The notes under the pieces are model-generated. The model was given only the letters and a program-made list of their open reading frames with translations. It did no database searches and was not told the origin of the DNA. Made by a program: the position numbers and the translations under genes. A DNA stretch of 64,000 bases, from the IMG/VR virus record IMGVR_UViG_3300014720_000017, positions 62,001 to 126,000 of that record; one strand, given 5' to 3'. This DNA comes from a virus. Shown here one piece after another: positions 1 through 56,349 of the stretch (positions within the stretch are counted from its first letter, which is position 1; every line of letters starts with the position of its first letter).

Positions 1-295
1 AACTGCTCCAATAGAATCAGGCACTACCTTATATGCAGATAATATAGATTTTGATGGAGAAAAATATACTAAAATTTTTATGGAAGATGTGTATTCTACA
101 GAAGAAGAAAGAAGTAAATTTGCAAAATATAGACAAGAACAAAGATCGCACTTTACTCCCACAATACAGATCGGAAATGTATACAACAGATGTATTATTT
201 TTGATACCAGAAATTGGCATAGTGCAGACAATTTTTTTGGCAAAGGTAAAGAAGATACTAGATTAACTAATGTATTCTTTTTCAAGGTAAGATAA
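1..295 (+). CDS. 2OG-Fe(II) oxygenase-like protein, C-terminal part (5' end outside window)
   Basis: The reading frame is open from the left edge (codons start at base 2) and ends in TAA at 293-295. Only about 97 residues are visible. The tail NWHSADNFFG followed by DTRLTNVFFF matches the distal iron-binding His and the 2-oxoglutarate-binding Arg of the DUF6445-type putative 2OG-Fe(II) oxygenases. It is clearly related to the next gene, whose equivalent segment is LWHSPANTFG then GRLTVTFF, so the two are tandem paralogs. The stop overlaps the next start (TAATG). Substrate unknown. Confidence 0.7.
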   Translation, partial: TAPIESGTTLYADNIDFDGEKYTKIFMEDVYSTEEERSKFAKYRQEQRSHFTPTIQIGNVYNRCIIFDTRNWHSADNFFGKGKEDTRLTNVFFFKVR

Positions 296-813
296 TGTTA
301 ACTAATATTGCACAACATTTTAAAATTGTTGATAATTTTTTAGAATTGCCTGGTTTATGGAGATCGTTTGCACTAAAACAGGAATACACAAAAGATCAAT
401 CGGGATATCCTGGTAAAAAAAGCAAACCATTGGACGAAATACACGAGAATATTTTCCATTCGTTAGCAGAAAAAATTGTTAAACATGTCAGTGGAAAAAA
501 TAATTTTCAAAGATTGAAAATACAATTTGCATATACAGAGGAGTCTAAATTTTTACAAAATATACATCAAGACGAGTTATTTTATAACGTAGCGGGAATA
601 ATTTATCTAAATGAAAATCCTCCTATAGGTACCGGAACTTTATTTTATAATAAGAATCCTAACGGCGAGTTAATAAAAACCCTAACTGTAGAAAATGTCT
701 TTAATAGAATGATTATTTTTAATCCAACTTTGTGGCATTCTCCTGCGAATACGTTCGGCAATGATCTTGAAACAGGCAGACTTACCGTTACGTTTTTTGG
801 AATAGCAACATGA
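295..813 (+). CDS. DUF6445-type putative 2OG-Fe(II) oxygenase
   Basis: This 172-residue protein has the double-stranded beta-helix signature of small 2OG-dependent oxygenases. The proximal HQD (HxD) triad is near residue 91, the distal His is in LWHSPANTFG near residue 146, and the 2OG-binding Arg is in GRLTVTFF near the C-terminus. Such enzymes use Fe(II), O2 and 2-oxoglutarate, usually to hydroxylate a substrate; the substrate is not predictable. The gene overlaps its neighbours by 1 and 4 bases and belongs to an AT-rich run of five same-strand oxygenase-like genes. It is a paralog of the partial gene upstream. Confidence 0.75.
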   Translation: MLTNIAQHFKIVDNFLELPGLWRSFALKQEYTKDQSGYPGKKSKPLDEIHENIFHSLAEKIVKHVSGKNNFQRLKIQFAYTEESKFLQNIHQDELFYNVAGIIYLNENPPIGTGTLFYNKNPNGELIKTLTVENVFNRMIIFNPTLWHSPANTFGNDLETGRLTVTFFGIAT

Positions 814-1421
814 ATGATAATATATTTGAAATTGAAAACATAATTCCCATTGATTATCAAAATCACATAGAAAAAATTATGTTAGGATCAAATTTCCCGT
901 GGTATTATAATCCTAATCTAGTTAGCCCGGATCAGCCCTTTTTGAAACGAAATGACAATCATCAAGGATTTAATCATCTTTTTTTAGAAGAAGGTAAGCC
1001 ATCAGCATACTTCGAACTGGTGTATCCATTAGCTCTTAGTATTACTAGCCAGCCGTGCATATCTGCAAATAATCTCATACGTATGCGAGCCAACTTAACA
1101 TTAAATGCAGCCGGGTCTTCTCTGCAACATCATCTTCCACATATAGATACATGGCGACCACACTGGGTGGCAATTTATTACGTTAATGACAGCGACGGTG
1201 AAACTGTGATTTTTAACGAGACCAACGATACTTATAACAGCGGACAATTAGATATTGATAGAACCCTAGCCGGAAATTTTACAATCAAGAAAAAAATCAA
1301 ACCAAAAAAGGGTAAAGTGGTAATATTCGAAGGAAAATATTATCACACGTCGTCCTGGCCAATTGAAAATAAATGTAGAAGCGTGATAAACATGAATTTA
1401 GAAAATATAGTGATCCCCTGA
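810..1421 (+). CDS. putative 2OG-Fe(II) oxygenase
   Basis: A 203-residue protein. The motif PHIDTWRPHW near residue 110 supplies HxD, YYVNDSDGETVIF is the typical following strand pair, and YYHTSSWP plus a later Arg (CRSVINMNL) supply the distal His and the 2OG-binding Arg. The GETVIF turn resembles the prolyl-4-hydroxylase-like branch of the superfamily. It overlaps the previous gene by 4 bases and the next by 1, so it is probably co-transcribed and translationally coupled. Fold confident, substrate unknown. Confidence 0.75.
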   Translation: MNDNIFEIENIIPIDYQNHIEKIMLGSNFPWYYNPNLVSPDQPFLKRNDNHQGFNHLFLEEGKPSAYFELVYPLALSITSQPCISANNLIRMRANLTLNAAGSSLQHHLPHIDTWRPHWVAIYYVNDSDGETVIFNETNDTYNSGQLDIDRTLAGNFTIKKKIKPKKGKVVIFEGKYYHTSSWPIENKCRSVINMNLENIVIP

Positions 1422-1978
1422 TGATGAAAGATTATACATTATATCAATCTGAATATATTGAAAAAAATATTAAGGATATTATATTGCACACGCAGCTAGC
1501 CTATCATTCTTTTAAAAAAATGTATCCCGATGCTGATACCACATGGACATATGATCGATATAACATTTTTAGTTTGGCTGGTCCTTCAAGTGTATTCTAT
1601 GGAATATTTAAAGAACTACAGCAATTTATAAAATTACAGTTAGGGGCAGACAATGAAATATGGTTGCAGTCTTGGATGAATTATATGTCTTATCAAGAAT
1701 TAGATCGATTAGATTGGCATAACCATGCATTTGATTATCATGGATACATATCCATTGATCCGAAAAACACGTTTACTGATTTTGAAAATTATGTGATAGA
1801 TAATAAACCTGGTCAAATTTATTTTGGGCCGGGCTATAGAAAACATAAAGTTGTCGCAGAGCGACCCTACGACGGAATGAGAATTACTCTAGGATTTGAC
1901 ATTTTAGTAACCAACAATACCAAAGTTGTTCAACATACTCAGCTGCCATGGGACAACTTATCTTTCATTCCTCTATGA
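1421..1978 (+). CDS. putative 2OG-Fe(II) oxygenase, HxH type
   Basis: A 185-residue protein with LDWHNHAFDYHGYISIDP near residues 98-115 and GQIYFGPGYRKHKV then RITLGFD further on. This is the layout of the 2OG-FeII_Oxy_5/TIGR02466-type proteins, in which the proximal motif reads H-x-H rather than H-x-D/E; the distal His is in RKHKV and the Arg in RITLGF. The start ATG overlaps the preceding stop. The next gene begins inside its 3' end (30-base overlap). Function beyond oxygenase-like is unknown. Confidence 0.6.
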   Translation: MMKDYTLYQSEYIEKNIKDIILHTQLAYHSFKKMYPDADTTWTYDRYNIFSLAGPSSVFYGIFKELQQFIKLQLGADNEIWLQSWMNYMSYQELDRLDWHNHAFDYHGYISIDPKNTFTDFENYVIDNKPGQIYFGPGYRKHKVVAERPYDGMRITLGFDILVTNNTKVVQHTQLPWDNLSFIPL

Positions 1979-2607
1979 TACAGCCTGATTATAAACTGTT
2001 GACAAACGCAGTGCCTACCGAGATATGCAAACTCTGCGCCATACAATATGAAATGCAAGAATCTTGCTGTGCAATAATCTATCCCACTGTGTCTATGGCT
2101 GACATGTCACCTAATTCATTTGCTAGATATGCTCCTTTGTGTTTTGAAGCACTATCTGTATATCTTTTGCCTGTAATAGAAAAGACTGTCGGCGAAGAAT
2201 TATTTCCTGTATACTCTTATGCAAGAATTTATCGCACCGGTAGTAGATTAGATCCTCACTTTGATAGATCCAGTAGTGAAATAAGTGTCAGCGTATGTAT
2301 TGGAAAAGATGATCAAGATTGGCCGTTGTTTATTAAATCAGATCAAGGTGTTACTCACGAAATCCATCTAAATCAAGGAGACCTTGTAATCTATAACGGA
2401 AATGCACAAGAGCACTGGAGAGATGAATTTACAGGTAAAAAACAAATACAATGTTTTTTACAGTATGTACGAGCTAACGGAAATCTTGCATGGTTAAAAT
2501 GGGATACAAGGCCTAGTCTGGGGTTGCCCTACGATTACACCGGCCCCGAAGTAAAGCAAGAAGTTGCGAAAGTTATGGCTGAACACAAACTTTCTGGAAA
2601 AATTTAG
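1948..2607 (+). CDS. putative 2OG-Fe(II) oxygenase
   Basis: A 219-residue protein. PHFDR near residue 101 gives HxD. NQGDLVIYNG then EHWRDEF supplies the strand before the distal His and the distal His itself, and KKQIQCFLQYV follows as the last core strand. It is the last of five rightward oxygenase genes. Its stop overlaps, on the opposite strand, the stop of the 58-residue ORF at 2604-2780, so the two blocks converge. A 7-bp inverted repeat, TTAGTTA/TAACTAA (2604-2624), sits at the junction and could be a weak bidirectional terminator. The start could lie slightly downstream because of the 30-base overlap with the previous gene. Confidence 0.7.
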   Translation: MGQLIFHSSMIQPDYKLLTNAVPTEICKLCAIQYEMQESCCAIIYPTVSMADMSPNSFARYAPLCFEALSVYLLPVIEKTVGEELFPVYSYARIYRTGSRLDPHFDRSSSEISVSVCIGKDDQDWPLFIKSDQGVTHEIHLNQGDLVIYNGNAQEHWRDEFTGKKQIQCFLQYVRANGNLAWLKWDTRPSLGLPYDYTGPEVKQEVAKVMAEHKLSGKI

Positions 2608-2780
2608 TTAGGGTTTTTAACTAAACTTGGTCCTGCAACTGTGCGTCCAACACCAAAAGTTTGTTCAAAATACCTTTGTGCTTCTTTTATACCAACAGCT
2701 TGACACGTTTCTCTCACAATTCTTAAGGAAGTAGTAGACTCTCTTAAAAAAATCTCATATGTTTTCAAATTTTCTGCCAT
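2604..2780 (-). CDS. small hypothetical protein (58 aa)
   Basis: This short ORF starts with ATG at 2780, preceded at 8-9 nt by a good ribosome binding site (AGGAG on the minus strand), and ends in TAA at 2604. The product begins MAENLKTYEIFLRES and is mostly predicted helical, with a short GVGRTVAGPSLV tail and no membrane segment. It lies one base after the stop of the first halogenase, so it is the last gene of the leftward halogenase operon. No family recognised. The strong RBS and tight spacing support a real gene. Confidence 0.55.
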   Translation of the reverse strand: MAENLKTYEIFLRESTTSLRIVRETCQAVGIKEAQRYFEQTFGVGRTVAGPSLVKNPN

Positions 2781-2781
2781 T

Positions 2782-4335
2782 TTAGTTCTCCTTGTTTGTA
2801 GTGCAACTGGGAGTAAGCATCCATTCGTCTAAGGTACAAAATGGATCAACCAATTGTTTATAATATTCTCTACTCTTATTTATAATTTCTAATCCCGAAG
2901 TTTCATGTATTTTTACGAACGGCCGTTGTTGCAGTATTTTTACATCAAAATAATCAAGCCCTTGTAACACCATTAACCATGCAGCTTCGGAATATCCTAG
3001 ACTTTGTGGCTCTACTCCGTCTCGATAATAAAAATCTTCCCATCGCTGAAGTTTCTCTTTCAAAGAATCTGGAATAGTTTGAGGATTTTTTAATTTTTTC
3101 CAATATTCGCTGTCGTTTCGTTTTCCTCGATAATGCAACGCTAGAAAATCTTTGATATCATTATACAAAGTAAACATTCTATCATTAAATTTTTCAGTTT
3201 TATTATGTTGCGCTTTTACTGATTTATCCGGATCCCAGTAGTCTAATAAGGAATACATTGCTTCTATTATTACTGCTACACCATTAGCTTCTAATGGTTC
3301 AAGAAATCCCGAACTTAGCCCAACTGCTATCACATTGTTTTTCCAATGTAATTTAGATATACCGGGGGTATACGTGAAATTAGCGACCGGCTCTATTTTT
3401 TTATTAAATCTTACAGACGCTTCGTCTATGGCTCGATCTAATGTGATACAATCTGGATCAAAAATATATCCATTACCCGATCGATGTTTTAGATTAATAT
3501 TCCATGACCAACCATGCGGCATAGCGAATGCGTTAGTGGTCAACGAAGGAGAAGAATCAGACCACCATGCTACAACACTGTTTGCCGGAAAAGTTTCGCT
3601 GAGATCGATTTGTTCAACTTTTAAAAGTTTATTAATAAGCAATCTAGAAAATCCAGAGCAATCAAAAAACCAATCTCCTTGGATACGTCGGCCATCTTTT
3701 AAAATAATTTGAGTTACATCGCCGTCTATACCGCATTCTGCATCTATGTATTCACCTAATACAACTTCTAAATCACGTTCTAGACCGAGATCCTTGAACC
3801 ATAATGCCGCAGCTCGACTATCGAAATGCCACATAGGATTACAAGGCAAAGGACTATACCGTCCAACCGGAACTTTGTTTTGTCTTATAAGTTCTCCAGA
3901 ATGAAACATGTGATGCAATGGAACATCGTTTGCTAATACTGTCTTTAGATATATACTGCGAATTTTTTCAGAAAAAACTCTATTTAATGCGATGTCGAGA
4001 GTTGGAGCGTTATCTAAAAATCTATCCCAGTTGTCTAGCCATGGTGAGTGATCTGTCTGCATAACGTGAAGGAATTCTGTACCGACCCCGTTCCAATCTA
4101 CAAATCTTCCACCGAGCTTGGGAGTTGCATTAGTTGCTTTGATAAAATCATCTTTGTTTACATTTATTCTATTTAAAAAATCAGTGAACAATGTATTCCC
4201 ACTTTCTCCTGCTATAATTGGTGGACGATTGGGATCCTCGATTACAGTTATAGCGAGATCAGGCCAGTATCTTTTAATATATAGTGCTGTGACCCAGCCG
4301 GCCGTTCCGCCGCCTAATATGACTATTTTTTTCAT
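2782..4335 (-). CDS. flavin-dependent tryptophan halogenase-like protein 1
   Basis: At 517 residues this is full length for the family (PrnA/RebH type, about 500-540). The FAD-binding GGGTAGW is at residues 8-14 and GES follows near residue 43. Lys73, in NATPKLGGRFVDW, corresponds to the catalytic Lys that forms the hypohalous adduct (Lys79 of PrnA). FLEPLEANG near residue 345 holds the conserved Glu. The WxWxIP fingerprint is altered: GWSWNINL instead of GWSWRIP. Family members use FADH2, O2 and chloride or bromide to halogenate indoles or other aromatics. No flavin reductase is seen in the window. It is the most divergent of three tandem copies, 9 bases after copy 2. Confidence 0.85.
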   Translation of the reverse strand: MKKIVILGGGTAGWVTALYIKRYWPDLAITVIEDPNRPPIIAGESGNTLFTDFLNRINVNKDDFIKATNATPKLGGRFVDWNGVGTEFLHVMQTDHSPWLDNWDRFLDNAPTLDIALNRVFSEKIRSIYLKTVLANDVPLHHMFHSGELIRQNKVPVGRYSPLPCNPMWHFDSRAAALWFKDLGLERDLEVVLGEYIDAECGIDGDVTQIILKDGRRIQGDWFFDCSGFSRLLINKLLKVEQIDLSETFPANSVVAWWSDSSPSLTTNAFAMPHGWSWNINLKHRSGNGYIFDPDCITLDRAIDEASVRFNKKIEPVANFTYTPGISKLHWKNNVIAVGLSSGFLEPLEANGVAVIIEAMYSLLDYWDPDKSVKAQHNKTEKFNDRMFTLYNDIKDFLALHYRGKRNDSEYWKKLKNPQTIPDSLKEKLQRWEDFYYRDGVEPQSLGYSEAAWLMVLQGLDYFDVKILQQRPFVKIHETSGLEIINKSREYYKQLVDPFCTLDEWMLTPSCTTNKEN

Positions 4336-4344
4336 ATTTGTTTA

Positions 4345-5841
4345 TTAAAATTTATATTTAATCAAAGGAACTCTGTTTTTAAGTATTTCAAGACACTGAC
4401 GATGCGGAATAGATTCTGTTAAATCTGCATTAAGAATCAGCATCTTTTCAATTTTTTCATCATAATTTTCTCTTAGGTGATCGTTGTAGACTTTTAAAGA
4501 ATGTTTTTGATCAATTAGCCTAAGACCATGCATTACCTGCATGAAGTTTAAGGTCTTAAACAATAACAGAGGTTCTCTAAAAAAATTATTATCAACATTA
4601 TTTTTTTTAAAGTATTCTAAATTTTCTTGATTGAAATCAGTGATCTTAAGTGAATTTTTGCACCAACTCCAAAAATCAGTATCGGATCGTTGAGTAAAAT
4701 AATGTAATTGTATAAAGTCGACAATATTTTCTGCAACTTTTGTTATAAGTTTATTATATTGTCTAGCGGTGCTTTCTTCGCCCTTTGCAAAGTGTGTCAT
4801 TGCAGATACAAGATTCGCACATTGTTGTATAGTGGTACCAATACTGCTAGCCTCTAATGGTTCAACAAATATACTACTCAAACCAATGACTGCGCAATTT
4901 TTAGTCCAGAATTTATCAACATGACCTGCTGCAAATTTAAATTTTTTTCCTACCGTGATATCGTCGATTGATAACTGTGTTTTGTAATGTGCTTTAATTT
5001 CTGACACAGCTTCGTCGTCTTTGATGAAACCGTCACAATAAACATATCCATTACCGAAACGATCCTGTGTAGGTATTCTCCAACTCCAACCGCTACTCAA
5101 TGCTGTTGCTTCTGTATACGACGGAATATTTTCTTGGTATGCAGTTTGAAATGCTATGGCACTATTCATAGGAAGAAATTCGCTTTTATCAACCCATTTC
5201 ATTCCTAAGTGATGACCTATGACTCTTTTAAAACCAGAGCAATCGATGTAAAAATCATAAACGTAGCTTTGATTATTTTCGTCGATAATCTCGCTTACAT
5301 AACCTTGTTGATCTACTTTTACTTCCTTGATTATATTATCAACTATTGTGATATTTCTCTCAATACACTTGCGATGCAGAAAATTATTCAATTTCATAGT
5401 ATCAAAATGAAACTGATTAATATTATCATGTAACGGCTCATAGTGTCTTGATTTTTGACTGCCATCCCCTAGTGTATGTAAAGGATCCCAGTTTTCTCCT
5501 ATCATCCTGAACCATGTGTACGGAATGTCATTTTTCGGATCTATACCACCAAAGTCTTGTAAAAGACTGTGAAAATAATGTGTGTCATCGCCGTGCCAAT
5601 TAGTAAATTTTATTCCAATTTTAAATGTAGCACCTGTGTGTTCAAACAATTCATGAAGAGGAATATCACAATATTCTACAAAAAACCTCCAATGTTCTGT
5701 AGTGCCTTCGCCAACACCGATAATTCCAATCTGCGAGGATTCGATCAATGTAATTTTTAATTTAGGATATGCTGCACGAAACATCAAAGCTGCAATTAAT
5801 CCGCTAGTTCCGCCTCCTAAAATGCCCAATGAGTTAATCAT
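4345..5841 (-). CDS. flavin-dependent tryptophan halogenase-like protein 2
   Basis: A 498-residue member of the tryptophan halogenase family. It has LGGGTSGL at residues 8-15, GVGEGTTEHW near 42-51, the catalytic-type Lys74 in GATFKIGIKFTNW, the canonical GWSWRIP motif, and VEPLEASSIG with the active-site Glu. It starts within an ATGA overlap with copy 3, so translation is probably coupled. The C-terminal region (DTDFWSWC and MQVMHGL) closely matches copy 3, pointing to a tandem duplication. Its substrate may be a free aromatic compound or a residue in a peptide; the sequence does not say which. Confidence 0.88.
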   Translation of the reverse strand: MINSLGILGGGTSGLIAALMFRAAYPKLKITLIESSQIGIIGVGEGTTEHWRFFVEYCDIPLHELFEHTGATFKIGIKFTNWHGDDTHYFHSLLQDFGGIDPKNDIPYTWFRMIGENWDPLHTLGDGSQKSRHYEPLHDNINQFHFDTMKLNNFLHRKCIERNITIVDNIIKEVKVDQQGYVSEIIDENNQSYVYDFYIDCSGFKRVIGHHLGMKWVDKSEFLPMNSAIAFQTAYQENIPSYTEATALSSGWSWRIPTQDRFGNGYVYCDGFIKDDEAVSEIKAHYKTQLSIDDITVGKKFKFAAGHVDKFWTKNCAVIGLSSIFVEPLEASSIGTTIQQCANLVSAMTHFAKGEESTARQYNKLITKVAENIVDFIQLHYFTQRSDTDFWSWCKNSLKITDFNQENLEYFKKNNVDNNFFREPLLLFKTLNFMQVMHGLRLIDQKHSLKVYNDHLRENYDEKIEKMLILNADLTESIPHRQCLEILKNRVPLIKYKF

Positions 5842-7304
5842 TTATATTGTTCTTTGATAAGTTCTATAGTTTTTTCATGAGAGAGAAATTCCCAATTTTT
5901 CTCTGATGGTACTCTACTTAGTTCGTTTTCAGTGACTGCTTGCCAGACTCGAAAATCGGACAAGTATTTTTCTTTAATCTTTGTAATATTAAATAATCCT
6001 AACCCGTGCATGACCTGTATCCAGTCTAACTCATCGAACAATTCGTAATTATTTTCATGAAAAAAATTCCAGCTTACAAAGTTATCCTTGAAATAATCAA
6101 CGGTCTCTCTGTTAAAGTCTGTAAGGATCATGTGGTTTTTGCACCAACGCCAAAATTCTGTGTCTGTTCGTTGCCCAAGATAATGTAGCTGCACAAAGTC
6201 TAGGATATTTTGATAAACACGATCAAAAGTTTTATTATATTTTTTTTCTATAAAGTTATCTTGATCAGACCAACAAATAAGTGAACTAGCTAGACATTTT
6301 ATTTGTTCTATAGTAGCACCTATACTGCTGGCTTCTAGCGGTTCGATAAAACTTCCAGACAGCCCGACTGCTACACAATTTTTTATCCAAAATTTATCTA
6401 TTTTTCCAGGAGTGAAATCGATCACCTTCGCTATTTTAATTTCATCTTTGTATTCGACTTGAAGCTCAGCAATAACCATGTTAATATCAGCAAAATTTTT
6501 ATTAAACACATAGCCGTTTCCGTATCTTCCCTGTACCGGTGCCTGCCAACTCCACCCGTGCTGCCTAGCGGTAGCAGTTGTAAATGTGCTTATTTTGTTA
6601 TCTAGAGGAGAAGGAAATGCTATTGCTGAATTTGTAGGAAGATATTTTTGATAAGATTCCCACTTGCTTCCTAAAGATTTATGAATGACTCTTTCAAATC
6701 CTGTTGTGTCAATATAAAATTCAAATTGATGATTCTGATTTTCACCTATCAATGTTTGAACAAACCCTTGCTCAGATAATTTAACTTCAACAACTGTATC
6801 TAATACAATTTTTATGTTGCGGTCTATACATAATTTTTCTAAAAAAGAATTTAGCTTAAACGTATCAAAATGAAATTGGCCTACCCCTGCTCCCAACGGC
6901 CCGGCGATCTTACCTTGGATAGCAAGATCAAAAACAATTTTTTCTGGGTCTACATTATTTGCTACAAAATTCATTAATGTGAACGGTAAGCCAGTATAAG
7001 AATCTTGAGAAACAAAATGTTCAGGAAGGCTATGATAAAATATATCATTACCATTTTTCCAATTCACAAACTTTATACCGTGCTTGAATGTTGCTCCTGC
7101 ATTCACAATTATATCATTAACTGATATGTTTGTGATTTTTGACAAATCGTCCCAGTGTTCGTTTGACCCTTCGCCCACACCAATTGCACCAATCTTATTA
7201 GATTTAATCACAGTAATTGGTAATTCAGTGAAACATGCTCTAAGCATTAACGCTGATATTAGTCCTGCATTTCCTGCTCCCAATATTCCAAGCGATCGTA
7301 TCAT
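5838..7304 (-). CDS. flavin-dependent tryptophan halogenase-like protein 3
   Basis: A 488-residue paralog of copy 2 with LGAGNAGL at residues 8-15, GVGEGSNEHW near 42-51, Lys74 in GATFKHGIKFVNW and IEPLEASSIG. The WxWxIP motif reads GWSWQAP. The divergence from copy 2 in the first glycine loop and in this motif suggests a related enzyme of different specificity rather than a fresh duplicate. The start codon overlaps the stop of the upstream oxygenase (ATGA), so the oxygenase and halogenases form one operon. Confidence 0.87.
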   Translation of the reverse strand: MIRSLGILGAGNAGLISALMLRACFTELPITVIKSNKIGAIGVGEGSNEHWDDLSKITNISVNDIIVNAGATFKHGIKFVNWKNGNDIFYHSLPEHFVSQDSYTGLPFTLMNFVANNVDPEKIVFDLAIQGKIAGPLGAGVGQFHFDTFKLNSFLEKLCIDRNIKIVLDTVVEVKLSEQGFVQTLIGENQNHQFEFYIDTTGFERVIHKSLGSKWESYQKYLPTNSAIAFPSPLDNKISTFTTATARQHGWSWQAPVQGRYGNGYVFNKNFADINMVIAELQVEYKDEIKIAKVIDFTPGKIDKFWIKNCVAVGLSGSFIEPLEASSIGATIEQIKCLASSLICWSDQDNFIEKKYNKTFDRVYQNILDFVQLHYLGQRTDTEFWRWCKNHMILTDFNRETVDYFKDNFVSWNFFHENNYELFDELDWIQVMHGLGLFNITKIKEKYLSDFRVWQAVTENELSRVPSEKNWEFLSHEKTIELIKEQYK

Positions 7305-7903
7305 GTTAGTCCTAAAATTATAGCTGCGTCTGAGCCTGCACCGGTATTGATTTTACCTGTAGGCAACACATTAAAACTAATAACATGCCTATCAAAATCG
7401 TCCACATGGGGCGGAGAATAATGAAATACATAACTGGGAAAAATAATTAAACTGCCTGGAACTGCCATGGTTTTTTCGACAGGTAAATAATCTTTTCTTA
7501 AAACTTCTAGCTGTGTCATACTTCTTGGTATTACAGGATCTTCGAATATGGTAGGAGCCCCTGCAGACATGTAATAGATTCCACTGAAAAAACTGTTGGT
7601 GTGTTTATGATATGTTTGATGCATGCCTTGATTTTTCAAACTTTGATTATACCAACTGGAGCTGATAGTAAATCTATCGCAATCGTATTTTTGTGAAACT
7701 CTTAGTTGTTCCAAGCATACATGAAACCAATTGAATAGTTCTGAAAGTTTTTCATCTCGATGCAATGAAATTTGAAAACTGAGATTGCTGCTGACCTTTG
7801 GAGAAATGTTTAACGACTGAATGTGGTCAACAATTTCTGAATGTTGAAATTGCTGCGTGGTAAACCTAAAAAATTCAACGGGAAATAGTTTAATGACTTC
7901 CAT
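7301..7903 (-). CDS. putative 2OG-Fe(II) oxygenase (TIGR02466-like, HxH type)
   Basis: A 200-residue protein with the layout of the 2OG-FeII_Oxy_5/TIGR02466 family: HQTYHKHTNSFFSGIYYMS near residues 95-113, FEDP in the next strand, GSLIIFPSYVFHYSPP with the distal His, and RHVISFNVLPTG with the 2OG-binding Arg. The proximal motif is HKH, not HxD. It is encoded directly upstream of halogenase 3 with a 4-base overlap and directly downstream of another oxygenase (TAAATG junction), so it is co-transcribed with the halogenases. Confidence 0.75.
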   Translation of the reverse strand: MEVIKLFPVEFFRFTTQQFQHSEIVDHIQSLNISPKVSSNLSFQISLHRDEKLSELFNWFHVCLEQLRVSQKYDCDRFTISSSWYNQSLKNQGMHQTYHKHTNSFFSGIYYMSAGAPTIFEDPVIPRSMTQLEVLRKDYLPVEKTMAVPGSLIIFPSYVFHYSPPHVDDFDRHVISFNVLPTGKINTGAGSDAAIILGLT

Positions 7904-8473
7904 TTACCATTCAATCCATCCTGTTAATAGATATTTTTCGCCTGACAGTGGAGGATTTCCCCTATGAACATGAGTGTAGGTGGCCGGCCATATGGCTAAT
8001 GTACCAATCGTAGCAGGAATCCGTATGCTTTGATACAAGAATTCAGTTTCTCCTCCCTCGTCTACTGCGTTTAGGTACAAAGACCAGGCCGCCACTCGAG
8101 AACATCTTTCTAAGCCATCCGATTCGAAATGCCAGATGTGATATCCTTCGCCGGGCAATGTTTTTTGTATTTTCATAGAACGCACATGATGTTTTCCAGT
8201 TTCGGCTAATACACTATAATGTCTAAGATATGACTCCCAACAGACCCAAAACTTTTTTAAAAACGGATGTAATACTGTAAGGTCCGGAGTCAAGCGCATG
8301 GAATCGTCTGATAGTACAAATACAGCTCTATCTTGTTTAATGTGTCCAGGCGATTCGAATCGAGGAAACGATAATTGCAATGTTTCTAAAGCATGATATC
8401 TTGCTATAATGTCATTACAGGTGGCTGCATCTACTAAATTATCCCAAGTTGCAATGTCTTTTTGTATTTTCAT
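7904..8473 (-). CDS. putative 2OG-Fe(II) oxygenase (prolyl 4-hydroxylase-like)
   Basis: About 189 residues if it starts at ATG 8473; a GTG at 8482 in the same frame is an alternative. YHIWHFESDG near residue 112 supplies HxE, GGETEFLYQ is the P4H-like strand turn, and GTLAIWPATYTHVHRGNPP holds the distal His, followed by a Lys/Arg-containing GEKYLLTGW. It is the first gene of the leftward halogenase operon, facing the rightward oxygenase gene at 8530 across a short AT-rich divergent region. Confidence 0.75.
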   Translation of the reverse strand: MKIQKDIATWDNLVDAATCNDIIARYHALETLQLSFPRFESPGHIKQDRAVFVLSDDSMRLTPDLTVLHPFLKKFWVCWESYLRHYSVLAETGKHHVRSMKIQKTLPGEGYHIWHFESDGLERCSRVAAWSLYLNAVDEGGETEFLYQSIRIPATIGTLAIWPATYTHVHRGNPPLSGEKYLLTGWIEW

Positions 8474-8529
8474 AAATTCCACTTACGTTGTTCGATAATA
8501 CTATATATCATATTACTTGGTGCCTTAAA

Positions 8530-9120
8530 ATGAATCATGACGAACTAATACCACTCTTTTCAAAACCTATATTGACATCTAAAATAACAAGTGTAGACGT
8601 CGACTTGTCATATGTAAAGTGGGCAAGAAACTATCAAAACTGGATTAGTGAAAGCCAAAATATTTTGAGCACAGCGCCTTTCAACAATATGCTAGACGAG
8701 ATAAGAAATAAAATTGCTGATTATTTTTACGGTGTTATGCAAGTATCTACAGACACTGAAATTTACATTACAGAATCATGGCTAAACAAAACTGAAACAG
8801 GTCAAAGCCATCATAGGCACTGGCACCCAAATTCAATATTATCAGGAGTAGTAACATTATCCGGTGATGCCAGTTCAGGACATTTAAAGTTAATAACCAG
8901 CCAGTATGATACTTTAGAATTTCAGGTAATTGATGCATCAATATATAATGCAAAAAGTTGGACTTTTCAATCAACTGCTGGCAACATTATAATTTTTCCT
9001 TCTAATATAGAACATTTAGTAGAACCCTATTACGGAAGTGAACCTAGAATTACTCTAAGCTTCAATACTTTCGTTAAAGGAAAAATTAACAGTCTGCCAT
9101 TGACACAATTACACATATGA
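8530..9120 (+). CDS. putative 2OG-Fe(II) oxygenase (TIGR02466-like, HxH type)
   Basis: I choose ATG 8530 (MNHDELIPLFSKP), which is the expected family N-terminus, rather than the upstream in-frame ATG at 8488 that would add 14 unrelated residues. SHHRHWHPNSILSGVVTLSG gives the proximal HxH, GNIIIFPSNIEHLVEP the distal His, and PRITLSFNTF the 2OG-binding Arg. It begins a two-gene rightward unit whose second member is a paralog. A weak promoter (TTGTTC 8488, 17 bp, TATTAC 8511) lies upstream. Confidence 0.72.
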   Translation: MNHDELIPLFSKPILTSKITSVDVDLSYVKWARNYQNWISESQNILSTAPFNNMLDEIRNKIADYFYGVMQVSTDTEIYITESWLNKTETGQSHHRHWHPNSILSGVVTLSGDASSGHLKLITSQYDTLEFQVIDASIYNAKSWTFQSTAGNIIIFPSNIEHLVEPYYGSEPRITLSFNTFVKGKINSLPLTQLHI

Positions 9121-9734
9121 GTCTTAAATCAATATCTTCCTTTCCGCCAGTAATTTTTCGAGATCATTTTGATTTTACAGACAGGCATCTTGCAGCCGCT
9201 TACGAAATTCTGCAGACTGCCAACAACTCTGTCACTAACTTAGAGATAGGTGATGCTCAAAGCACAGTATCAAATCAAAATAACGCTCCACATAAACATA
9301 AGGATTTTTTAGATTTTTTTTTATGGTTAGAAGAAAAAAGCAAACTTATAATTTGCGAATGGAAACACGACACTAACAATCAGTTTTATGTTGGCAATAG
9401 TTGGATTAATCGTCACGGTAAAACTGGAGAAACAATACCACATAATCACGGATTCAGTGTGTTAAGTTGTGTAGCTTATATTTCACTGCCGCATGCATCA
9501 GGCTTTACACAATTTCAAGACCCCCACTATAATTTTAAAAATTTACATGAAGTTTCTAATCTCCAAGAATACTATTCAGTTCCGGCACAACAAGGAGATG
9601 TTTTGTTTTTTCCGGGATGGTTGATGCATAAATCCGAAAAAAGTACCAGTACTGAAGATAGAATAATTTTATCTGCAAATTTTGTGAACTTTACACATAC
9701 TCAGCACTTTACCTTTGGAAGTATTCAAAAATAA
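9117..9734 (+). CDS. putative 2OG-Fe(II) oxygenase (TIGR02466-like, HxH type)
   Basis: A 205-residue protein with VGNSWINRHG, TIPHNHGFSVLSCVAYIS (proximal HNH), FQDPHY, GDVLFFPGWLMHKSE (distal His) and DRIILSANF (Arg). It overlaps the preceding paralog by 4 bases. It is the last oxygenase before the structural genes. The substrate is unknown; closeness to the fibre-like gene at 9813 is suggestive but is not evidence of a shared role. Confidence 0.72.
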   Translation: MSLKSISSFPPVIFRDHFDFTDRHLAAAYEILQTANNSVTNLEIGDAQSTVSNQNNAPHKHKDFLDFFLWLEEKSKLIICEWKHDTNNQFYVGNSWINRHGKTGETIPHNHGFSVLSCVAYISLPHASGFTQFQDPHYNFKNLHEVSNLQEYYSVPAQQGDVLFFPGWLMHKSEKSTSTEDRIILSANFVNFTHTQHFTFGSIQK

Positions 9735-9812: not shown

Positions 9813-11849
9813 ATGGCTAAAATACCTGTTCTCGATAACATTAGAATAATTCCTAAAGAATCCGAATTTCTTAATAGAAAGGTTGGAGCTAGAGGAGAAA
9901 TATTCTATGATAAAGATACTAATACTCTCCGCTTATACAATGGACAATCCCAAGGTGGCATTTCGCTGGCAAAAGGCGATCTCACCAATGTTTCTAACGC
10001 TGCATTTCTTGCCAAAGCTAATTCAGCAGGATTCAGCGGCGGAGTTCAAACAGGAGTGGCTGGCAAAATAGCCTACTATCCTTCAAATGGTTCGCAGGTC
10101 AACGACTTAACTGCTTTGACATGGCTAGATGACAGCACAAATACTTTGGTGTTATCGGGTGTGATAGATATCACAGGCCAAAAAAATCGTATAAGATTCC
10201 ACTGGGATACGCTAGCAGATCTCAACGACGAAGTTTCGCCTGTAGATTATCACGGCATGGTAGCACATGTACACGATACGGGAAAATTGTATTATGCTCA
10301 TGCAGGTGCTTGGGTACCTGTGGCCAGCGAATCTAGTTTGCCTAATTCATTTAGCACTGTGGTTGTTGCAGGACAGAGCTCTGTGATAGCTGATTCAACT
10401 ACAGATACACTAACACTAGCCGCCGGCTCTAATATTACTATTACCACCAATGCTGGCACAGATACCATAACTATTAATTCAACAACCAGCACAGGTAGCA
10501 TCACGTTTGTAGGAACCACAATAGATTCCGCAGACAGTTCCACTATTACATTTACACCTACAGTGGCTTTTGATTCAGATGTTGTGGTAGGTAATGAAAT
10601 TGTGTTCGCAGACGGTACAAGGCAATCGACCACAGCCGTAGGAGTTCCCGGACCACAAGGACCTCAGGGTCCTGCAGGCGCCACAGGAGCAGGTACCGGA
10701 GATGTAGTTAGTTCGGGCGGCGGATACGTTGATAACGCTATCGTACGCTACGATGGCACTACAGGCACCATCATTCAAAATAGTTCTGCCACTATATCAG
10801 ACGCTGGATTATTGACAGCTACTAATTTTAGCGGTGGAGGTGCAGCACTCACTGCCTTAAATGCCACCCAATTAACTTCAGGCACCATACCTGATGCACG
10901 TTTCCCAGCCACACTACCTGCAGTAAGCGGAGCGAATCTCACAGCATTACCTGCAACGCTGCCAGCCGCCAGCGGTGCGAATCTCACTGCATTGAACGCC
11001 ACTGAACTTACCAGCGGCACAGTACCTGTGCTTAGACTAGGGGCGTCTGGCACTAGAGATGCTACCACATTCTTAAGAGGCGACAATACCTGGGCGGTGG
11101 TCGCAGGAGGCGGTGGAGCCTCTGATAGTTTTAGTACTATTGCTGTAGCCGGCCAATCAAGCGTGGTGGCAGATTCCAGCACAGATACATTGACCTTGGT
11201 AGCAGGCACAGGTATTACCATCACCACCAATGCGGGCACGGATACGATAACTATCACCAACAGCGGCAGTGCGTCTGATAGTTTCACTACCATAGCCGTG
11301 ACCGGTCAGAGCAACGTCGTAGCAGATTCCGCTACGGACACCCTGACACTGGCAGCAGGTTCGGGTATTTCTATAACTACGGATGCCGGTACAGACACGG
11401 TTACAATTACCAATACGGTCGCTGCAGGTGCTACCGCGTTCACGGGGCTCAGTGATGCCGCTGGTTTAACCGTAGATCAATTTTATCTGCCCGCTATCAC
11501 GATGTTGAACGTGACAAATAACGGAGCCTCGGCCTATAGATTCGATCAGTATGGTACCACAGACGATCCTACCATATATGCTCTTAACGGTGCTACCATC
11601 GCTTTCAATCTCAATGTCGGAGGTCATCCTTTCTTGATCCAGGACAACACGGGAAATAATTATAACACGGGTCTAGTGCATGTGACCACTGGCGGAACAG
11701 TGACCACGGGAGCTTCTGCACAGGGCAAGACCTCAGGCACATTGTATTGGAAGATTCCTGATTCTATATCAGGTAATTACAGATATCAATGTTCTGCACA
11801 TGTTGCTATGGTGGGAACGATAACTATCAAAAACTTTGGCAGCATCTAA
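9813..11849 (+). CDS. tail fibre-like virion protein with cupredoxin-like C-terminal domain
   Basis: A 678-residue structural protein. The N-terminal ~50 residues (IFYDKDTNTLRLYNG) resemble phage fibre attachment modules. A collagen-like GPQGPQGPAGATGAG occurs near residues 279-293. Three copies of a 40-50-residue repeat (core AGQSSVVADSSTDTLTL then TITTNAGTDTITI) and shorter SGANLTALPATLP repeats make up the shaft. The last ~110 residues contain GGHPFLIQDN and YRYQCSAHVAMVGTITI, which reproduces the His...Cys-x2-His-x3-Met layout of type 1 copper sites in plastocyanin-like folds. It probably binds the host surface. Antisense ORFs here are shadows of the repeats. Confidence 0.75.
   Translation: MAKIPVLDNIRIIPKESEFLNRKVGARGEIFYDKDTNTLRLYNGQSQGGISLAKGDLTNVSNAAFLAKANSAGFSGGVQTGVAGKIAYYPSNGSQVNDLTALTWLDDSTNTLVLSGVIDITGQKNRIRFHWDTLADLNDEVSPVDYHGMVAHVHDTGKLYYAHAGAWVPVASESSLPNSFSTVVVAGQSSVIADSTTDTLTLAAGSNITITTNAGTDTITINSTTSTGSITFVGTTIDSADSSTITFTPTVAFDSDVVVGNEIVFADGTRQSTTAVGVPGPQGPQGPAGATGAGTGDVVSSGGGYVDNAIVRYDGTTGTIIQNSSATISDAGLLTATNFSGGGAALTALNATQLTSGTIPDARFPATLPAVSGANLTALPATLPAASGANLTALNATELTSGTVPVLRLGASGTRDATTFLRGDNTWAVVAGGGGASDSFSTIAVAGQSSVVADSSTDTLTLVAGTGITITTNAGTDTITITNSGSASDSFTTIAVTGQSNVVADSATDTLTLAAGSGISITTDAGTDTVTITNTVAAGATAFTGLSDAAGLTVDQFYLPAITMLNVTNNGASAYRFDQYGTTDDPTIYALNGATIAFNLNVGGHPFLIQDNTGNNYNTGLVHVTTGGTVTTGASAQGKTSGTLYWKIPDSISGNYRYQCSAHVAMVGTITIKNFGSI
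10347..11418 (+). repeat. in-frame fibre repeats
   Basis: Three diverged copies of a segment encoding (S/D)SF(S/T)T(I/V)xVxGQS(S/N)VxADS begin near 10347, 11124 and 11277. The last two are spaced 153 bp (51 codons) apart. Between copies 1 and 2 lie a collagen-like tract (about 10647-10695) and SGANLTAL/ATLPA repeats (about 10925-11000). Such repeats are usual in fibre shafts and are prone to recombination. Confidence 0.7.
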
Positions 11850-42082: not shown

Positions 42083-43273
42083 ATGCTATCATCACATTTT
42101 GCCGAAGACATATTTCTTGAATTCCATGACCTAGTTGAATCTGATAAAATCAAGGTACAACACACGGACCTAAGTCCCATTTCAAGTTTTTACTTGCGAA
42201 TCATCAACGGAGATGCGTTGACCAAAAGTCAGGCTGATTTTGTGGTGAAAATTCTTGAAAAATACCGACACCTAGCTCTGATGGCAGGATTCGACTATGT
42301 AGATCCGTTGAGAAATCTCGCATGGAAGCAGCCGTTCCGCGTATTAGACCTTACTAAACGGATCTATGTGGAACGCACAGGTCAGGGGAATTTAGAGGTA
42401 TGTGTGAAATTTCCTTATCAGCTGAAAAAAGAGTTCGATGACCAGATAAATTCGTATCAACTCTCAAGCACCAGATTCAATAACTGGGACGCAAATCAAA
42501 AACTGCGAAGGCTAAACCTTTATGATTTCAATCTCATTGCACTGTACGAATTCGCCAATCGAAATAATTTTGAAATAGACGATAGTTTTACAAATGTGTT
42601 GGCAGATGTGGAAGAAATCTGGCAAAATCAGGAAGAAATTTCACCTGTGTCGGATATCGTCGATGATAGAGTTCACCTGTTCAATGCCACTGCCGACGCT
42701 GAACAATGGTTCGATCTCCACTTTGTGGGCGAAACTGATAAAGATCTGCTTACTGCCAAGCACATGGGATACTCATACCGCGGACAACCTAAAAATAACA
42801 ATGAAAAAATAGCTGCTCACACAGAAAACAGCTTTTGGATCAAATCCAACGAGACGTTTTTTGACCTATATAAAAATATCACCGGTAAAGCCGCGGTGAT
42901 GTTAGATCGCACCGGAGACACACTGTCTTGGCTGCAGAAGTTTGTGGCAGATGCTGATGCACAGGGTGTCAATAGGAATGAAATCAAGGTGTGTTTTAGA
43001 GACAGCAGGGATCAAGACACAGGTATCAATGAGTGGATTAGGTTGGCGGGCGTTGGCGGTAAAGTAGAGTCCGGCAGATTATTGATATTTGAATCGAGGC
43101 CGGCTAAATGGTTGTTTAAAGATACAAGTGATGTTACACTGTTAGTAACGAACAATGTATTTCCTCCTACGAATGTCATAACTAGAGATTGGTTCAACAG
43201 CCATCCTTGTGTGATATATCTTGGAGATATCAAACCATCAGAGACCAAAGGACAAAAAATTGTCGAGCTGTAA
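42083..43273 (+). CDS. conserved-looking protein upstream of uvsW (396 aa)
   Basis: A 396-residue protein I cannot assign. The N-terminal half is helical (LTKSQADFVVKILEKYRHLALMAG; KRIYVERTGQGNLEVCVKFPYQ). The C-terminal half has alpha/beta segments typical of an NTPase-like domain without a P-loop (KAAVMLDRTGDTLSWLQKFV; NEIKVCFRDSRDQ; DVTLLVTNNVFPPTNVITRDW). It shares an early, apparently leaderless promoter with uvsW and its 3' end overlaps the uvsW start. A replication or recombination partner of UvsW is likely (inference). Confidence 0.6.
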   Translation: MLSSHFAEDIFLEFHDLVESDKIKVQHTDLSPISSFYLRIINGDALTKSQADFVVKILEKYRHLALMAGFDYVDPLRNLAWKQPFRVLDLTKRIYVERTGQGNLEVCVKFPYQLKKEFDDQINSYQLSSTRFNNWDANQKLRRLNLYDFNLIALYEFANRNNFEIDDSFTNVLADVEEIWQNQEEISPVSDIVDDRVHLFNATADAEQWFDLHFVGETDKDLLTAKHMGYSYRGQPKNNNEKIAAHTENSFWIKSNETFFDLYKNITGKAAVMLDRTGDTLSWLQKFVADADAQGVNRNEIKVCFRDSRDQDTGINEWIRLAGVGGKVESGRLLIFESRPAKWLFKDTSDVTLLVTNNVFPPTNVITRDWFNSHPCVIYLGDIKPSETKGQKIVEL

Positions 43274-44714
43274 ACTGATCATCCGAGACGAAGTCAACGT
43301 AAAATTTGAAGGCCTCAGCGTGGAGACTCGTCGCAAGATAGTGAATAAATTAAAATACGATCTGCCCTATGCAAGACATATGCCTGCATATAAGCTAGGC
43401 CGCTGGGATGGAACCAAGACCTATTTTGGCATTGGCGGCACAGGATATCTCGCACATCTAGATGTGATCTTGCCTATCATCGAAGATTCAGGCTACGAGT
43501 TAGATATCGAAGATCTAAGATCGCCACATAAATTTTCATTCCTACCTGTATCAGAAACCTATTGGGCAGATCAGGGCAAGACTTGGCCCCAAGGACACAT
43601 CGAAGCAGGCACACCTATTGTGCTGCGTGATTATCAATATGATGTGATCAATAAGTTTTTGGAAAATCCGCAGGCCTTACAGGAAGTGGCCACAGGAGCA
43701 GGCAAGACTATAACCACAGCCACACTGAGTCATTTATGTGAACCCTATGGTCGTACTATGATCATCGTGCCCAACAAGAGCCTAGTAGTGCAGACTGAGG
43801 AAGATTATCGAAATCTCGGATTAGACGTTGGAGTTTATTTTGGTGATAGAAAAGAACTAGGACGTACCCACACTATCTGTACCTGGCAGAGTCTCAATAT
43901 CTTAGACAAAAAGAGCCACGATGAAGCCACACTAACACTGGCGGAATTCTGCGAAGATGTAGTAGCAGTGATCGTAGACGAAGTGCATCAGGCCAAGGCA
44001 GAAGTGCTGACCAAACTGCTGACACAGAATTTTAAAAACTGTGCCATACGTTGGGGACTTACTGGCACCGTTCCTAAGGAAGCCTGGGAGTATCAGGGCA
44101 TACTGGCCAGTATCGGTCCAGTAATCAACCAAGTGAGTGCGCATGACTTACAGAACAAAGGAGTGCTGGCGCAATTGAACATTAATGTGTTACAGACCAC
44201 AGATGTCGAAGTGTTTACATCCTTTCAAGATGAATACACGTTCTTGGTCACAGATGATAGAAGGTTAGAGTGGATCGCTGATAAGATTATCAGCATATCT
44301 GATGCCGGCAACACTCTAGTGTTGATCAATAGAATTGACACGGGAAATAAATTAATCGCCTTGATTCCGGACGCTGTGTTTGTCAGTGGCGGTATGAAAC
44401 TTGATGACCGCAAGGAAGAGTATGATGAAATTAAAACAAGTGACAACAAGATTATTGTGGCGACTTACGGTGTGGCCGCTGTGGGTATTAATATTCCAAG
44501 GATTTTTAATCTGGTTCTTATTGAGCCCGGAAAGAGCTTTGTCCGCGTTATACAAAGCATTGGGCGAGGCATTAGAAAAGCAGAAGACAAAGATCACGTA
44601 GAAATTTGGGACATAACCAGTACCTGCAAGTATGCTAAAAGGCATCTTACAGAACGAAAGAAATATTATAAGGATGCCCGATATCCTTTTACGATAACCA
44701 AGGTAATCATATGA
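43260..44714 (+). CDS. uvsW: recombination helicase UvsW
   Basis: I prefer the TTG start at 43260 (AAGGACAAAAAA upstream), giving SSCKLIIRDEVNVKFEG, which aligns with the T4 start MDIKVHFHDFSHVRID; the ATG at 43221 would overlap the previous gene by 53 bases. The ~484-residue SF2 helicase has the N-terminal DNA-binding domain (YKLGRWDGTKTYF), ATGAGKT (about residues 144-150), VDEVHQAKA, WGLTGTVPK, NTLVLINRIDTGNKL and the motif VI region VIQSIGRGIRKAEDK. It resolves replication and recombination intermediates. Confidence 0.9.
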   Translation: MSSCKLIIRDEVNVKFEGLSVETRRKIVNKLKYDLPYARHMPAYKLGRWDGTKTYFGIGGTGYLAHLDVILPIIEDSGYELDIEDLRSPHKFSFLPVSETYWADQGKTWPQGHIEAGTPIVLRDYQYDVINKFLENPQALQEVATGAGKTITTATLSHLCEPYGRTMIIVPNKSLVVQTEEDYRNLGLDVGVYFGDRKELGRTHTICTWQSLNILDKKSHDEATLTLAEFCEDVVAVIVDEVHQAKAEVLTKLLTQNFKNCAIRWGLTGTVPKEAWEYQGILASIGPVINQVSAHDLQNKGVLAQLNINVLQTTDVEVFTSFQDEYTFLVTDDRRLEWIADKIISISDAGNTLVLINRIDTGNKLIALIPDAVFVSGGMKLDDRKEEYDEIKTSDNKIIVATYGVAAVGINIPRIFNLVLIEPGKSFVRVIQSIGRGIRKAEDKDHVEIWDITSTCKYAKRHLTERKKYYKDARYPFTITKVII

Positions 44715-45217
44715 GAATTTTAACACTTAACAACACGGCATTTGATCTTAACGAACTACCCGACGAAGTAGATGAGGATACTAGATTTTCAGTTCTTGAT
44801 AACAGCAATCCTCAAGAGCCAGATTTCTTTTTCATGCCGTTAATTTTTCTCGAATCGTTTAACAGTCCTGCGATATTGCTGAAAGTCGGCGGGCACGAGA
44901 TACAGATGCCATTAGATTGGTGTATGGTGGTAGGCGACAAAGAATGCGGGCTAGATCCCGAAGTTCTTCCTTTAACCAGCATCAATGAACGAGGATTCGA
45001 TGCGCTGGTGTTTAATCCTATCAAAGGCTTCAAAGCCGAATTTATGCCTATAGAAATCGTCAATATCTTCCAGGATGTCAGATGGTATTTTCCCAAGATG
45101 AAAAATGGACAATTACTAACTGTGCCGTTGCATGACGACCCAAATCCCCCCTGTGTGTTTTTTGTCAAGGAAGTCAGCAGGCAAAGTGAAGTTGTGCAGC
45201 TACACAAATTAGTTTGA
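44711..45217 (+). CDS. hypothetical protein coupled to uvsW (168 aa)
   Basis: A 168-residue acidic protein (NNTAFDLNELPDEVDEDTRF; SPAILLKVGGHEIQMPLDWCMVVGDKECG; FDALVFNPIKGFKAEFMPIEI) starting in an ATGA overlap with uvsW. The pattern VGGHEIQMPLDWCMVVGD looks like a small beta-barrel. The C-terminus YFPKMKNGQLLTVPL...PPCVFFVKEV adds two strands. No recognised family. Coupling to uvsW suggests a DNA metabolism or transcription accessory role, but nothing in the sequence proves it. Confidence 0.55.
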   Translation: MRILTLNNTAFDLNELPDEVDEDTRFSVLDNSNPQEPDFFFMPLIFLESFNSPAILLKVGGHEIQMPLDWCMVVGDKECGLDPEVLPLTSINERGFDALVFNPIKGFKAEFMPIEIVNIFQDVRWYFPKMKNGQLLTVPLHDDPNPPCVFFVKEVSRQSEVVQLHKLV

Positions 45218-45225
45218 AATAAATA
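45218..45225 (+). promoter_or_regulatory. late promoter-like motif (AATAAATACTC)
   Basis: AATAAATACTCAG lies 28 nt before ATG 45254, whose leader contains AAAAGG as a Shine-Dalgarno site. It opens the second glycan island with a late signal. Confidence 0.55.
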
Positions 45226-45253
45226 CTCAGTTAATTAATTAAAAAGGTGCAAT

Positions 45254-46440: not shown

Positions 46441-46446
46441 TAAATA
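46439..46446 (+). promoter_or_regulatory. late promoter-like motif (AATAAATA)
   Basis: AATAAATATATAC overlaps the stop codon of the fucosyltransferase-like gene and lies 22 nt before ATG 46469, with AAAGGA as Shine-Dalgarno site in the leader. It probably drives the long run of overlapping genes to 53554 and beyond. Confidence 0.55.
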
Positions 46447-46468
46447 TATACTTAATAAAGGATTTATT

Positions 46469-48910: not shown

Positions 48911-48911
48911 T

Positions 48912-49583: not shown

Positions 49584-49586
49584 TTT

Positions 49587-50165: not shown

Positions 50166-50174
50166 GGAAATAAA

Positions 50175-55371: not shown

Positions 55372-55372
55372 A

Positions 55373-56318: not shown

Positions 56319-56320
56319 TC

Positions 56321-56328
56321 GATAAATA
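56321..56328 (+). promoter_or_regulatory. T4-type late promoter motif (GATAAATA)
   Basis: GATAAATAATG lies 21 nt before ATG 56350, with AAAGG in the leader as a ribosome binding site. It is in the 31-bp divergent gap with the minus-strand gene. Confidence 0.55.
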
Positions 56329-56349
56329 ATGCTAAAGGTCCGTTAATGT

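Follow-up and report, generated by a model that had tools for sequence, protein, structure and literature searches.

Why a phage should gather a dense group of oxidative enzymes amid its virion genes is the question raised by a 64,000-nucleotide stretch of viral DNA, hereafter the window, which covers bases 62001-126000 of the 129,780-base IMG/VR virus record IMGVR_UViG_3300014720_000017 (genome coordinates refer to that record). A sequence-only reading of the window had described, at positions 1-9734, three flavin halogenase genes accompanied by nine 2-oxoglutarate (2OG)-Fe(II) oxygenase-like genes, and had proposed one coordinated function for them. All twelve oxidative genes are present, with the three tryptophan halogenase-type genes in tandem on the minus strand (PF04820; Bitscore: 282-339; cut-off: 21) and with stop and start codons overlapping as described. 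The cassette was, however, undercounted because the window edge cuts the block. At its full extent (genome 54270-71734) it comprises 22 genes in 17.5 kb, encoding four flavin-dependent halogenases (FDHs; HAL1-HAL4), sixteen oxygenase-like proteins, one phrog_7084 protein and one protein of 79 amino acids. We suggest that this block represents one mobile oxidative-tailoring module of T4-like phages, which may halogenate and hydroxylate the tail-fibre tips and/or the product of a neighboring phrog_1787 gene, a proposal to which we assign a probability of roughly 0.47.

Layout and recurrence of the block

The record is T4-like, encoding a tail sheath, a UvsX-like recombinase and a DnaB-like helicase. 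Its major capsid protein has its nearest relatives in the phage collection in Sinorhizobium phage Phosso and PA5oct-like phages (65-71%), while its best match in cyanophage Syn9 is at 32%. The part of the block to the left of the window (genome 54270-62295) contains seven further oxygenase-like genes and the 5′ part of oxH, as well as HAL4, the phrog_7084 gene and the gene for the 79-amino acid protein (Table 1). A rightward run (54270-64607) converges on a leftward run of oxN, oxM, HAL3, HAL2 and HAL1 (70482 down to 64782), and two rightward oxygenase-like genes (70530-71734) close the block. Virion genes flank it on both sides, with a 2,512-amino acid tail fibre, three glycine-rich tail-fibre-tip paralogues and the phrog_1787 gene on the left, and a fibre-connector-like protein (phrog_677), a tail-sheath-stabiliser-like gene and neck-type genes on the right.

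The convergent order, in which the halogenases face oxL, oxK, the phrog_274-type gene and, further along, a JmjC gene, is common by profile annotation to at least 20 IMG/VR viral contigs, near-duplicates included. The order of approximately 15-20 genes is kept among these contigs and the cassette proteins are mostly 45-60% identical, while rearranged mixtures are found in other contigs (L031, L034, L048, L061 and L082). As the same order is seen in 20 or more viral contigs, the block is not a product of chance, and an annotation artefact is ruled out together with chance by the profile scores, by the purifying selection and by the retained order. The sequence-only reading had made recurrence as a unit one of the points on which a joint system would turn, and both order and linkage were found to be conserved. 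In comparison with the close relatives L095 and L092, most cassette genes have a ratio of non-synonymous to synonymous substitution rates (dN/dS) of 0.03-0.11, including 0.03-0.08 for HAL1, and the fastest reach up to approximately 0.27, although these values are rough because dS is saturated for many genes. Orthologs of HAL4 and oxA are absent from the L095 and L092 stretches as compared. The cassette genes are under purifying selection and retain intact catalytic residues.

Catalytic signatures of the halogenases and oxygenase-like proteins

The four FDHs match PF04820 (Trp_halogenase) with bitscores of 282-368 and contain a GxGxxG motif, while the WxWxIP motif is present in HAL2 and HAL4 and altered in HAL1 (WSWNIN) and HAL3 (WSWQAP). 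Across 61 aligned halogenases, the catalytic lysine (HAL2 K74; PrnA K79) and the flavin-motif glycines are invariant, and the catalytic glutamate (HAL2 E330; PrnA E346) is conserved in at least 90%. A model of HAL2 (predicted local distance difference test score, pLDDT: 93.9) has a confident halogenase fold, matching PyrH, PrnA and other tryptophan halogenase structures with TM-scores of approximately 0.8-0.88, and the catalytic Lys and Glu expected by the sequence-only reading are upheld by conservation and by the alignment to PrnA. The alignment of the HAL2 and PrnA sequences stops at PrnA residue 429, short of the segment that binds free tryptophan, and as such the name "tryptophan halogenase" is unsupported as a statement on the substrate. 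HAL3 is a paralogue of HAL2 (44% amino acid identity). In the halogenase tree, HAL1 and HAL3 each form a group with one member per contig (support: 100 and 99, respectively), as does HAL2 with weak support, suggesting that the paralogues are older than these phages and have been retained since. A recent acquisition from a bacterium was considered and rejected, as a single genome scan yielded only relatives of at most 37% identity, some of which are perhaps phage contigs in metagenome-assembled genomes; given this ceiling, the FDH clade looks phage-specific. No match to a flavin reductase (PF01613) was found in the record, and FADH2 is assumed to come from a host reductase.

Oxygenase status is good for those proteins which match PF13759, PF13640, DUF6445 or related phrog families. 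The oxK and oxL products are weak by Pfam alone but have strong phrog family matches, and keep a conserved His..His..Arg or His-x-Asp..His pattern. Among family members, HxD/E...H is kept in 81 of 85 DUF6445 proteins, 68 of 73 of the phrog_274 type, all 43 of the phrog_61 type (with D or E) and all 22 JmjC proteins, as well as in the entire phrog_2954 family (39/39, with HxD in 38). PF13759 (146/148) and phrog_2696 (28/28) members carry HxH...H...R instead. Seven of the sixteen oxygenase-like genes, namely oxK, oxM, oxO, oxP and three upstream genes, belong to the latter two families and fail the 2-His-1-carboxylate test, and the classification of all sixteen as 2OG-Fe(II) dioxygenases was thus rejected. 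All nine genes which the sequence-only reading had placed in this class are oxygenase-like, but four of them lack its HxD/E signature. Judging from their motifs, the PF13759 and phrog_2696 proteins may be three-His iron enzymes, and their assignment as 2OG dioxygenases is unproven. The cassette JmjC protein is nearest to the NO66/MINA53 histidyl hydroxylases and the YcfD-type L16 arginine hydroxylase, while the nearest solved structures to OxN are prolyl 4-hydroxylases (P4Hs). The names "minor coat protein", "DNA endonuclease V" and "ferrochelatase", given in PHROG and RefSeq to families of the oxI, oxJ and oxL types, look wrong because these proteins keep HxD...H signatures and PF13640/DUF6445-type matches.

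Linkage to tail fibres, phrog_1787 and VirX1

HAL4 is an ortholog of VirX1 (PDB 6QGM), the second halogenase of cyanophage Syn10, with 54% amino acid identity over the whole length, while HAL1-HAL3 fall in clades more distant from VirX1. Work on VirX1, an iodinating halogenase, has dealt with the isolated biocatalyst, and a review table gives no biosynthetic context for it (PMC8407142). Directly behind the glycine-rich fibre genes (gp38 and gp39 in Syn9) and the small phrog_1787 gene (gp40 in Syn9), both Syn10 and Syn9 carry an FDH, the VirX1-type FDH, the phrog_7084 and 79-amino acid protein genes and ten oxygenase-like genes, the order of the last being largely collinear with the rightward run described above. 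In public records these genes are hypothetical or doubtfully named. The same run, with one FDH, is found in S-CREM1, for which published mass spectrometry of virions detected 14 proteins, and shorter versions in S-RIM44, P-TIM40, Sf-FR1, S-WAM1 and P-RSM6.

Homologs of phrog_1787 occur in 20 of 50,697 phage records, which are exactly the 20 with the closest VirX1-type FDH (41-62% identity), and at most one gene separates the two. As these records represent approximately nine distinct phages, the raw hypergeometric figure for this co-occurrence should not be read literally. Furthermore, a phrog_1787 homolog is encoded in all 17 IMG/VR regions examined, and its C-terminus in the classic cassettes forms a conserved W-x-R-Y-P-G-W-type tail. 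Of 28 records, 22 encode homologs of the glycine-rich fibres and have the nearest FDH at a distance of 0.5-3.5 kb from them, as is also the case in the genome described here; the remaining six records are short contigs or other cluster types. The glycine-rich tips contain 5.4% His, compared to 2.0% phage-wide, and slightly raised Tyr (4.8% versus 3.8%).

In comparison with Syn9, the core genes are 25-41% identical (mean: 30%) and the collinear module genes 42% on average (one-sided Mann-Whitney p = 5e-4), with 53% for phrog_1787, 54% for HAL4, 50% for both the JmjC protein and oxH, and 45% for phrog_7084. This excess is supportive but not conclusive, as different proteins evolve at different rates. 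The GC content at third codon positions is 0.29 in the fibre region and 0.28 in the cassette, compared to 0.33-0.45 elsewhere. The simplest reading of these sequence comparisons would be that the fibre tips and the enzymes were inherited or transferred together, and the module seems to be transferred as a whole.

The phrog_7084 protein is a constant neighbor of the VirX1-type halogenase. Its model matches a dUTPase-like fold (e-value: 8e-5; 11% identity) and its sequence contains a GILDxxY-type stretch resembling a dUTPase motif, while no dUTPase profile match was obtained and a weak DUF6065 match is found in four of 37 members. Several relatives hold a second phrog_7084 gene at the opposite cassette end, beside a NUDIX gene (L010 5400-6678), and a distant homolog adjoins thymidylate synthase in the archaeal Halorubrum virus HRTV-2 (L127 8755-9627). 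The 79-amino acid protein has a conserved LNPYGITSIDF centre and neither Trp nor a core-like tail, and is thus an unlikely precursor of a ribosomally synthesized and post-translationally modified peptide (RiPP).

Table 1. Genes of the oxidative block and its flanks, with profile matches (e-values unless given as bits)
Feature	Window	Genome	Strand	Description and matches
oxH	1..295 (cut by window edge)	61594-62295 (complete gene)	+	DUF6445 / phrog_1644 oxygenase-like, 233 aa; PF20043 over cut-off on fragment; phrog_1644 6e-40 on full gene; HxD...H...R conserved
oxI	295..813		+	DUF6445 / phrog_1644 oxygenase-like; PF20043 1.3e-14; phrog_1644 9.8e-26
oxJ	810..1421		+	phrog_274-type, PF13640-like oxygenase, HxD...H; phrog_274 9.6e-42
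oxK	1421..1978		+	phrog_2696 oxygenase-like, HxH...H...R not HxD; phrog_2696 4.6e-38
oxL	1948..2607		+	phrog_2954 oxygenase-like; phrog_2954 8.7e-49; weak PF13532
HAL1	2782..4335		-	Flavin-dependent halogenase; PF04820 282 bits
HAL2	4345..5841		-	Flavin-dependent halogenase; PF04820 339 bits
HAL3	5838..7304		-	Flavin-dependent halogenase; PF04820 299 bits
oxM	7301..7903		-	PF13759 oxygenase-like, HxH...H; PF13759 8.6e-13; phrog_81 4.8e-28
oxN	7904..8482		-	P4H-like oxygenase (PF13640, phrog_61), HxE...H; PF13640 6.5e-8
oxO	8530..9120		+	PF13759 oxygenase-like; PF13759 6.1e-19
oxP	9117..9734		+	PF13759 oxygenase-like; PF13759 2.2e-16
Flanking virion gene (right cassette border)	9813..11849		+	Collagen-like repeats, related to baseplate wedge/tail fibre connector; phrog_677 1.5e-45
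HAL4 (fourth halogenase)		55009-56616		VirX1-type FDH
phrog_7084 gene		56588-57400		Models as a dUTPase-like fold
79-aa gene		57404-57643		Conserved protein
2,512-aa tail fibre		42721-50259		Five CBM_5_12 carbohydrate-binding (chitin-binding-type) stretches
Three glycine-rich tail-fibre-tip paralogues		51092-53681		PF21722, phrog_863
phrog_1787 gene		53697-54197		

Elsewhere in the window, an island at approximately 32862-53554 resembles, by sequence, a sugar or glycan biosynthesis region with nucleotide-sugar and transferase-like proteins, and a Nol-like carbamoyltransferase gene (58312-59259) follows it. In two other phages, FDHs of other types directly adjoin genes annotated as tail fibre or adhesin (S-SRM01, L139 11842-13299; P-SSM2, L133 11941-13398). 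The unannotated S-PM2 halogenase (L138 12001-13300) appears as two adjacent halogenase-matching frames and may be broken or misannotated.

Candidate targets and comparison with known systems

In the scheme we propose, the halogenases would use host-supplied FADH2, O2 and halide to act on aromatic side chains (Trp, Tyr and His) of newly made tail-fibre-tip proteins, with their Gly/His/Tyr/Ser-rich PF21722 domains, and/or of the phrog_1787 protein. The P4H-like, JmjC and PF13759-type oxygenases would hydroxylate other residues of the same proteins, with a different site for each paralogue, while the phrog_7084 and 79-amino acid proteins might, as a guess, serve as accessory or substrate-presenting factors. 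Adhesin tips chemically altered in this way would differ in how they bind receptors, in stability or in resistance to proteases. Tailoring of the fibre tips or phrog_1787 is favored on the basis of the protein-hydroxylase relatives, the precedents for FDHs acting on peptides, the His/Tyr enrichment and the W-x-R-Y-P-G-W-type tail. The retained gene order, the co-occurrence with phrog_1787, the divergence and codon-bias results and the end of the HAL2-PrnA alignment ahead of the free-tryptophan segment also speak for it. Some flavin halogenases are known to brominate Trp residues of ribosomal peptides (PMC10858898, PMC10286304), a halogenase-like flavoprotein dihydroxylates Trp in a protein (PMC7876137), and the active site of VirX1 is large and accessible (PMC8407142). 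A bolder form of this proposal, namely that a widespread phage-encoded system of up to 20 enzymes halogenates the phage's own tail-fibre adhesins after translation, hydroxylates them at multiple positions and is transferred together with them as a module, is put forward somewhat more tentatively. The evidence favors a protein target, namely the tail-fibre tips or their small phrog_1787 partner. The single coordinated function of the sequence-only reading is as such partly supported, with recurrence and catalytic residues holding, but with the favored protein target unproven.

Several observations weigh against tailoring of the fibre tips. The proximity of fibre genes and FDHs is not significant per record under random placement, and is weak by itself because most contigs are short and random placement in them is often equally close; the case for a link is therefore based on the exact co-occurrence and on the tests of divergence and codon bias. 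Accessory genes are often located in late virion regions, the aromatic phrog_1787 tail is missing in several cyanophages, and the dUTPase-like fold of phrog_7084 hints at nucleotides. FDHs of other types lie away from fibres in S-B64 (near gp46), Syn1, S-PM2 and S-MbCM6, while one contig carries a stand-alone FDH that is flanked by the sliding clamp and clamp-loader genes and has no oxygenase gene near it (L055 9299-12433). Finally, the modification of the tips is itself inferred.

The cassette may rather make or decorate a small molecule or glycan, such as a metabolite, signal or capsule sugar, which benefits the infected cell or excludes competitors. The different halogenase/2OG/carbamoyltransferase cluster of S-SSM6a was predicted by Iyer et al. 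to yield a halogenated metabolite or to decorate the capsule (PMC7824862), VirX1 halogenates many small aromatics in vitro (PMC8407142), and a glycan-type gene island lies in the window (~33-54 kb). We nevertheless consider this unlikely: a search for backbone or precursor-activating genes of a natural-product cluster (NRPS, PKS or RiPP) found no AMP-binding (PF00501), carrier-protein (PF00550) or YcaO (PF02624) gene in the record, the classic cassette is without a carbamoyltransferase or methylase, and the strict link to phrog_1787 and the fibre tips would be left unexplained. Modification of host macromolecules during takeover, be they ribosomal, surface or regulatory proteins, would accord with the P4H-like members and with the resemblance of the JmjC member to the ribosomal-protein hydroxylases NO66, MINA53 and YcfD. 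It would not explain the co-transfer with fibre-tip genes, however, and distant hosts would need to have a single target in common, because the collinear cassette occurs both in cyanophages and in a phage with a capsid nearest to those of proteobacterial phages, making such a role improbable.

Much the same low standing is given to hypermodification of DNA bases or nucleotides, in which halogenated and hydroxylated bases would be formed. The cassette is placed among virion genes, the characterized oxygenase relatives are protein hydroxylases, and no Tet/JBP, thymidylate synthase (thyA) or canonical dUTPase match was found in the record, itself possibly incomplete, even though the dUTPase-like fold and GILDxxY-type stretch of phrog_7084, the thymidylate synthase beside its halovirus homolog and the location of some FDHs among replication genes point in this direction. 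The absence of any joint function, with independent auxiliary genes collected in a hot spot and the oxygenases, for example, tuning 2-oxoglutarate levels, is how the single genes are mostly understood in the literature (PMC3037559, PMC9602691) and is consistent with the rearranged mixtures of L031, L034 and L082. This we regard as the least probable, given the conserved order of approximately 15-20 genes at 45-60% identity, the one-per-contig FDH ortholog groups and the exact co-occurrence with phrog_1787.

The concentration of oxidative genes, which the sequence-only reading had called remarkable for a phage, is real, but cyanophages with as many as 24 oxygenases of this kind (PMC9602691) and with as many as two halogenases (PMC3037559) are already known, and another type of cluster that combines a halogenase with oxygenases has been described in S-SSM6a (PMC7824862). 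The single genes were treated as auxiliary metabolic genes in the earlier literature (PMC3037559, PMC2984593, PMC9602691, PMC9964418). No description of a tail-fibre-linked module including VirX1 was found in the searchable literature, with an earlier mention possible in the 2007 Syn9 and 2019 VirX1 papers. The ingredients are thus known, and what is apparently new is to see them, VirX1 included, as a single conserved module that is linked to tail fibres and apparently mobile. For this structurally solved and biotechnologically interesting viral iodinase, which has no assigned pathway, the module context supplies a concrete substrate hypothesis, testable in the cultured phages Syn9, Syn10, S-CREM1 and S-RIM44. 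If true, phages would chemically edit their receptor-binding tips after translation, adding a new layer to phage-host recognition and providing a source of protein halogenases. An alternative is also offered to the view of the oxygenases as metabolic genes that tune 2-oxoglutarate.

Among cellular systems, the RiPP brominase SrpI and the peptidyl-Trp dihydroxylase QhpG are related flavoproteins that act on Trp in a ribosomal peptide or protein (PMC10858898, PMC7876137), but they have a known precursor, whereas the cassette described here is without a demonstrated leader-core precursor. The S-SSM6a/S-SSM7 cluster likewise combines a halogenase with 2OG/cupin oxygenases between fibre and neck genes, but differs in its carbamoyltransferases, methylase and sugar genes and in an FDH approximately 30% identical to HAL4 (PMC7824862); phrog_7084, 79-amino acid protein and phrog_1787 genes were not detected in it. 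VirX1 shares both full-length orthology and gene neighborhood with HAL4. The runs of Syn9/Syn10 (gp41-gp54) and S-CREM1 (ORF69-80), the genes of which have been published only as separate auxiliary genes (PMC9964418), differ from the cassette in having one or two FDHs rather than four, a single direction and no convergent HAL1-HAL3 operon, but resemble it in the combination of FDH, phrog_7084, the 79-amino acid protein and nine to ten oxygenase-like genes behind the fibre genes.

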